From Patescibacteria group bacterium (lineage in GTDB: Bacteria; Patescibacteriota; Patescibacteriia; SCPX01), in contig SCPX01000018.1 of the NCBI GenBank assembly GCA_004298615.1, forward strand, positions 1 through 32,157: DNA of 32,157 nt, written 5' to 3'. Position 1 is the first letter of the stretch. Every line of letters begins with the position of its first letter. A program made the position numbers and the translations under genes. The notes below the pieces were generated by a model. That model had not been told where the DNA came from and did no database searches. It saw only the letters and a list, made by a program, of their open reading frames with translations. Positions 26,096 through 26,411 of this stretch are shown piece after piece.

Positions 26096-26159
26096 ATCAT
26101 CTGACAAAATTATAACACATATTGACCAAATCTAAAAATTTTTGTAAGATATACTACAT

Positions 26160-26388
26160 GCCGGGATGGTGGAATCCCGCAACAGAACAAAGTTCTGTGC
26201 GGGACAAGCTGGCAGATTTACCCCGCATAGATGATGCCGCCGTGGTGGAACTGGCAGACACGCAGCACTCAAAATGCTGTGAGCGCAAGCTCGTGTCGGT
26301 TCGACTCCGACCGGCGGCATCACTTGCGCGGGACAGGCAAAATCGTGTCTCGCTTAGCGGGATGAGGGTTCGACTGCCTCCCGCGGCA
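26160..26388 (+). other. Interrupted tRNA-Leu-like sequence (5' and 3' half-copies) flanking an intact tRNA-Leu
   Basis: GCCGGGATGGTGGAA|34-nt hairpin insert|CTGGCAGATTTACC on the 5' side; GGCAAAATCGTGTC|~17 nt|GGTTCGACTGCCTCCCGCGGCA on the 3' side. Both match tRNA-Leu(CAA) segments apart from inserts. Confidence 0.55.
26236..26319 (+). tRNA. tRNA-Leu(CAA)
   Basis: Acceptor GCCGCCG/CGGCGGC+A; anticodon arm AGCA-CTCAAAA-TGCT (CAA); long variable arm GAGC-GCAA-GCTC; T-arm GTCGG-TTCGACT-CCGAC. Confidence 0.94.
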
Positions 26389-26411
26389 TTTTATTAAATA
26401 AAACCAAACCT

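Follow-up and report, generated by a model that had tools for sequence, protein, structure and literature searches.

Within the window, the whole 32,157-nucleotide stretch of Patescibacteria DNA that was analysed, a complete tRNA-Leu(CAA) gene lies inside a second tRNA-Leu gene. The separated halves of the outer gene enclose an insert with complementary arms, and the complete tRNA occupies the loop between these arms. We consider it probable that palindromic elements target the loops of tRNA genes in these bacteria, that copies carrying a matching tRNA survive by replacing the gene they break and that the outer gene subsequently decays. According to this proposal, the D-loop of the resident tRNA-Leu(CAA) would have received a palindromic element whose hairpin loop held an entire tRNA-Leu of matching isoacceptor. 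Such an insertion would break an essential single-copy gene yet bring a substitute, and the cell would survive because the carried tRNA takes the place of the destroyed gene. Freed from selection, the outer gene would take up more family hairpins in its loops and decay, and the inner tRNA with its paired arms would be retained; events in the window are presumed to have followed this order.

ARAGORN and Rfam were used to locate tRNA genes, and both recognised a single intact tRNA-Leu(CAA) (54.2 bits, E 3.5e-9) and nothing further in the region from 26160 to 26388. It is the only CAA copy found in the genome of the window (G000), in which the five Leu isoacceptors have one gene each. From 5′ to 3′, the features of the locus are:

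26160–26174, + strand: 5′ end of the outer tRNA-Leu, with acceptor strand GCCGGGA and the first half of the D-arm (TGGTGGAA), ending at A15 (read from the sequence; equal order in L010, L048, L053, L063, L219 and other loci)
26175–26208, + strand: hairpin element I1, 34 nt, separating A15 from position 16 in the D-loop of the outer gene (TCCCGCAACAGA...TCTGTGCGGGACAAG)
26209–26216, + strand: remainder of the outer D-loop (CTGGCAGA, G18G19 to A21; read from the sequence)
26217–26235, + strand: left end of insert I2, TTTA plus the left arm CCCCGCATAGATGAT, which pairs with 26320–26332 (inverted repeat; covariation in 20 units)
26236–26319, + strand: inner, intact tRNA-Leu(CAA) in the loop of I2 (ARAGORN, Rfam)
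26320–26332, + strand: right arm of I2 (TCACTTGCGCGGG; inverted repeat, covariation)
26333–26337, + strand: ACAGG tail, likely a remnant of I3, a hairpin that in relatives separates U33 from position 34 of the anticodon loop (from comparison with L053, L061/L240, L067 and L241)
26338–26388, + strand: 3′ half of the outer tRNA-Leu(CAA), from the anticodon loop (CAAAATCGTG) to discriminator A, with acceptor strand CCGCGGC and a T-arm with a mismatched 53-61 pair (read from the sequence)
26348–26362, + strand, within the preceding feature: class II variable arm of the outer gene (TCTCGCTTAGCGGGA)

An earlier note on this DNA had described an intact tRNA-Leu(CAA) bracketed by tRNA-Leu halves, which the two programs bore out, and the 5′ half-copy, the 34-nt hairpin and the six CCCGC/GCGGG modules all lie where it had placed them. 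The roughly 17 extra nucleotides that it saw as an insert in the 3′ half turned out to be the variable arm of the outer gene, as revealed by alignment from the anticodon loop. The outer CCCGC/GCGGG helix, which it had likened to an anticodon stem, is real and covaries; it closes the insert at the D-loop and is no anticodon stem, because the 5′ half ends inside the D-loop. Besides the tRNA scan, the note had suggested folding the transcript, and the whole stretch folded far better than shuffled sequences (−111 vs −85 kcal/mol, z −5.05).

The arms on either side of the inner tRNA make up an inverted repeat of 21 nt. In I2 of the window, ATC of the right arm, together with the discriminator, pairs with GAT of the leader; in relatives, GGT pairs with ACC of the encoded CCA. 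There, deletion of the inserts joins the D-loop remainder (G18G19 to A21) exactly onto the CGC of the D-stem. The 3′ half of the outer gene shares 23 nt with the intact gene at 83% identity, and the stretch between both GCGGG copies, including the 5′ strand of the anticodon stem, has likely been lost in the window. The outer gene shows two acceptor mismatches and G-G at the 53-61 pair, and after removal of the inserts the reassembled tRNA was not recognised by ARAGORN. As read from its sequence, the outer tRNA-Leu(CAA) is dead and cannot work, because of the acceptor mismatches, the lost 5′ strand of the anticodon stem and the broken T-stem pair. A 91-aa open frame (26122–26397) runs across the entire nested tRNA and through tRNA sequence, and was not taken as a gene.

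Independently assembled genomes of Patescibacteria, about 16 in number, share the nested order of 5′ half, hairpin, intact tRNA with complementary arms and 3′ half. Carriers with names belong to the Doudnabacteria, the Kerfeldbacteria and the Parcubacteria group; further cases within the class and across the phylum were found by a pattern built on the junction of D-loop and left arm. Nested loci comprise all five Leu isoacceptors as well as Ile, Asn, Asp, Thr and other tRNAs, and some loci (L048/L062, L219, L240) are nested two to four levels deep. Among 20 unselected related genomes, a same-strand 5′ half, scored by sequence similarity only, was present upstream of 8 of 70 tRNA-Leu genes, downstream of one and in antisense orientation at none, which exceeds chance; this is an undercount, as the locus of the window itself fell below the cut-off because the hairpin splits its match. 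Insertion sites, read by eye for all loci, were between positions 15 and 16 or 21 and 22 in the D-loop, 33 and 34 in the anticodon loop and 55 and 56 in the T-loop. Wherever the anticodon arm of the outer copy was readable (about two dozen loci, by eye), inner and outer tRNA were the same isoacceptor. The inserts occur in two forms, one with short arms directly on the tRNA (CCCCGCATAGTTGGT - tRNA - CTTGTGCGGGG) and one with long arms that are alike only in their outermost 8–10 nt. The genome of the window itself contains a tRNA-Asn nested likewise, and half copies and hairpins accompany its tRNA-Pro(GGG), tRNA-Ser(GGA) and tRNA-Gln(CTG). At this tRNA-Asn locus (L070, G000:C5:26067), the enclosing halves are likewise tRNA-Asn, the arms (CCCGCCCAAATTTTTTG/CAAAAAATTTAGGCGGG) measure 17 nt and the outer T-loop holds a hairpin. 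In L052, a series of dissimilar hairpins lies downstream of a nested tRNA-Leu(UAA), with GCAAGCC after every hairpin, as if they had been stacked successively.

For the arms, the outer ten positions were compared across 20 units. Pairs were formed at 182.5 of 200 positions compared with 158 ± 3 in shuffles, and none of 5000 shuffles reached the observed score, a result somewhat inflated by kinship among the sequences. Compensating exchanges (C-G/T-A and A-T/C-G/T-A) were evident at several arm positions. On this comparison, the arms of the insert are kept through compensating changes. Such changes also speak against an assembly artefact or collapsed tandem tRNA genes, as do the syntenic empty site described below and the identical, exact boundaries across independent projects and organisms; repeats and hairpins are difficult for short-read assembly and the named carriers are metagenome assemblies, but we regard an artefact as hardly credible.

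The strict form of the hairpin, CCCCGYA..TRCGGGGCARG, occurred in about 50 copies in 14 of 30 genomes, compared with a single match for the reversed-pattern control. I1 belongs to this dispersed family; its site and ends are constant and its loops differ across about 15 nested loci. Palindromic repeats of the REP/RPE type are recognised by scattered copies whose palindromic ends are conserved and whose loops vary, and the hairpin family fits this description. The evidence supports well the suggestion in the earlier note that tRNA genes were entered by a small palindromic element; moreover, what separates the halves is itself such an element, and its loop contains an entire tRNA. In the genome of the window, one strict hairpin was found at C4:27380 and looser ones at C3 (L089) and in the window. 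In G158, a Kerfeldbacteria draft that was read almost whole, 12 of 19 family hairpins lie within 300 nt of a tRNA, with 3% of the genome within 500 nt (P about 2e-14, calculated with this 500-nt fraction). Here, hairpins interrupt tRNA-Pro, Thr, Asn, Asp and Leu genes; a tRNA-Ile gene is interrupted in G432, and in G032 hairpins lie within nested Thr and Ile loci. Among the 28 intact tRNAs of G158, 12 are accompanied by a half copy on the side that nesting predicts (two to three at control positions) and nine are flanked by inverted repeats of at least 10 nt. Palindromic elements of Rickettsia and Wolbachia, and other REP-like palindromic repeats, are short palindromes scattered over the genome; their ends are conserved, their loops vary and they are found inside genes. 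The Patescibacteria hairpins resemble them in ends, loops and insertion within genes; they differ in being concentrated at tRNA genes and entering tRNA loops, and in some of them the loop of the hairpin encloses an entire tRNA gene. The strict hairpin at C4 (L271, G000:C4:27380–27422) is enclosed by a terminator-like hairpin (CGCCGA..TCGGCGTTTTTTT), whose loop it occupies; tRNA-Cys lies a short way downstream.

An empty site was provided by a plain tRNA-Leu(UAA) gene in G016, whose syntenic copy in G156 (same genus, same neighbours) is interrupted. The G156 copy reads GGCGGAA, 36 nt, CTGGCATA, 117 nt with the inner tRNA, CGCACAGGACT, 38 nt and TAAAATCC; that is, the gene is interrupted at three loop positions with neither loss nor duplication of the target, the 51-nt 3′ part is identical to that of G016 and one insert holds an intact tRNA-Leu(UAA). 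The 5′ acceptor strand of the outer copy has since changed and its pairing is gone. Exact removal of inserts was also possible at other loci. Deletion of I1 and I2 yielded a tRNA-Leu that ARAGORN recognised, of the same isoacceptor as the inner one, for L063 (UAG), L219 level 2 (CAG), L236 (GAG) and L240 level 2 (CAA). These four outer genes are perfect apart from their inserts, and some may still be used.

The outer copy resembles the resident tRNA of relatives in L053, L067, L219 level 2 and L240 level 2 (91–96% identical to the relatives' genes), and inner and outer copies are only 70–78% identical in L063, L236, L222, L067 and the window. A replacement of resident tRNAs is supported by the outer copy being the resident tRNA at some loci and by the inner copy being divergent at others. 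These comparisons, together with the exact insertions seen at the empty site, render insufficient the decayed tandem array that the earlier note had considered. Copies in a tandem array are similar and lie side by side; here one copy lies inside the other, and the outer 3′ half of the window is only 70% identical to the inner tRNA.

Evidence against replacement came from three loci. In L241, the outer gene without I2 and the anticodon-loop hairpin is identical to the inner one, and in L220 and L265 the 3′ halves match; for such identity, local copying or gene conversion is a better explanation than foreign cargo. A tRNA gene might have been duplicated locally, its copy coming to lie in the D-loop of the original (A-AB-B) through break repair or through template switching at hairpins, possibly after breaks by a GIY-YIG nuclease, with no mobile element involved. 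Forms of the type A-GIY-YIG-AB (L007, L012), in which only the 5′ half is doubled, point in the same direction, as does SegB, a GIY-YIG nuclease of phage T6 that amplifies a tRNA locus by recombination (PMC13096335). The SegB system is alike in linking tRNA copies to a GIY-YIG enzyme, but its product is a tandem repeat in a phage and not a nested gene. Local duplication would not predict shared ends (CCCCGYA/TRCGGGG) around different isoacceptors in different families, nor family hairpins elsewhere or divergent inner tRNAs, and we consider it unlikely as the general explanation. Also unlikely is a mobile class of tRNA that would move about in the loop of a palindromic element, home into the D-loop of a resident tRNA of the same isoacceptor and replace it, both being made at first from one nested transcript with the outer tRNA surviving in a D-loop-nicked form.

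With respect to replacement by palindromic elements, a parallel exists in integrative elements that target tRNA genes and restore the broken 3′ end of their target. In both cases the invader's own sequence makes good the broken gene; unlike integrative elements, the nested inserts are small, have no integrase and carry a full tRNA in the middle of a hairpin, and the resident gene has become an outer shell.

The nested gene might also be a working precursor: RNase P and 3′ processing would release the inner tRNA, and the outer tRNA would work either nicked in the D-loop or spliced. Both D-loop inserts keep the pairing strands of the D-stem, the four outer tRNAs mentioned above are perfect once I1 and I2 are removed, in every case read by eye the inserts are confined to loops, and the arms covary. 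However, the outer tRNA is dead in the window and at most loci, no known intron or ribozyme was matched in Rfam, and G041, G500 and G432, with 48–54 tRNA matches, likely have complete intact sets. A working precursor appears very improbable as a general explanation; where the outer gene is perfect, splitting or splicing of the tRNA is possible, because both D-loop inserts leave the D-stem strands pairable. Split and intron-containing tRNA genes occur in archaea such as N. equitans and the Thermoproteales. Like these, the nested genes have a GC-rich helix that joins the halves and inserts at several positions in tRNA loops. A split tRNA should have no intact gene for its isoacceptor between or next to the halves, whereas here an intact tRNA of the same isoacceptor, tRNA-Leu(CAA) in the window, lies between them, and the outer genes are mostly dead.

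In 932 kb of the G158 draft (L302–L360), ARAGORN recognised only 28 intact tRNAs and none for Cys, Phe, His or Tyr; masking extends over the full length of five small contigs. The missing tRNAs may reflect assembly gaps at tRNA loci or interrupted genes that escaped recognition. Obligate splicing, at which this number had seemed to hint, was rejected: a search for intact T-arms of the missing tRNAs yielded next to none, and the tRNA counts of better assemblies are full. We tentatively attribute the low count to the draft assembly.

tRNA genes are usually treated as slowly evolving and vertically inherited. If hairpins do repeatedly break and replace them, tRNA identity, the evolution of isoacceptors and tRNA-based annotation in Patescibacteria would need review, and the nested loci would be a clear case of an insertion that brings its own rescue for the essential gene it disrupts. 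Nested (matryoshka) tRNA genes would then stand as an arrangement beside split, permuted and intron-containing ones, and loci with an intact outer gene make the question of a split precursor directly testable. In the open-access literature, which leaves most subscription journals and preprints outside its scope, we found no account of nested tRNA genes or of tRNA-targeting palindromes in these bacteria. Insertions are known from rRNA genes of CPR bacteria, some with GIY-YIG ORFs in insertions that match no intron (PMC11270868); these are likewise interrupted stable-RNA genes, and that text does not mention tRNA, hairpins or palindromes.

Several candidate carriers and enzymes were examined. 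A mobile element specific for Leu was ruled out, other tRNAs being interrupted as well. Known intron and ribozyme covariance models of Rfam gave only tRNAs as real matches, which excluded a group I or group II intron in the tRNA, and no real match to tmRNA was obtained. Phages as carriers were rejected, the frame pattern being absent from IMG/VR. A Y1/RAYT transposase is unsupported as the common mobiliser, since PF01797 was missing from the genome of the window (G000) and from six other carriers (G136, G156, G032, G100, G500 and G531). Small GIY-YIG genes (about 78–88 aa) are located inside or beside interrupted tRNA-Leu genes at L007, L012, L024/L175, L027/L013, L029 and L236 (beside); at L007, L012, L024, L027 and L029 the gene follows the outer 5′ half and precedes the intact tRNA, and the family was confirmed for three such ORFs. 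In L007 and L012, a GIY-YIG gene plus a duplicated 5′ half restores an intact tRNA. These genes are present at only some nested loci, and the insert of the window contains no GIY-YIG nuclease ORF. This patchy presence and the absence of PF01797 count against replacement by mobile palindromic elements. By analogy only, the GIY-YIG nuclease is a candidate for the mobiliser. At L241, an ORF resembling a DUF559 (Vsr-like) nuclease, identified by eye only, begins shortly downstream of the outer tRNA.
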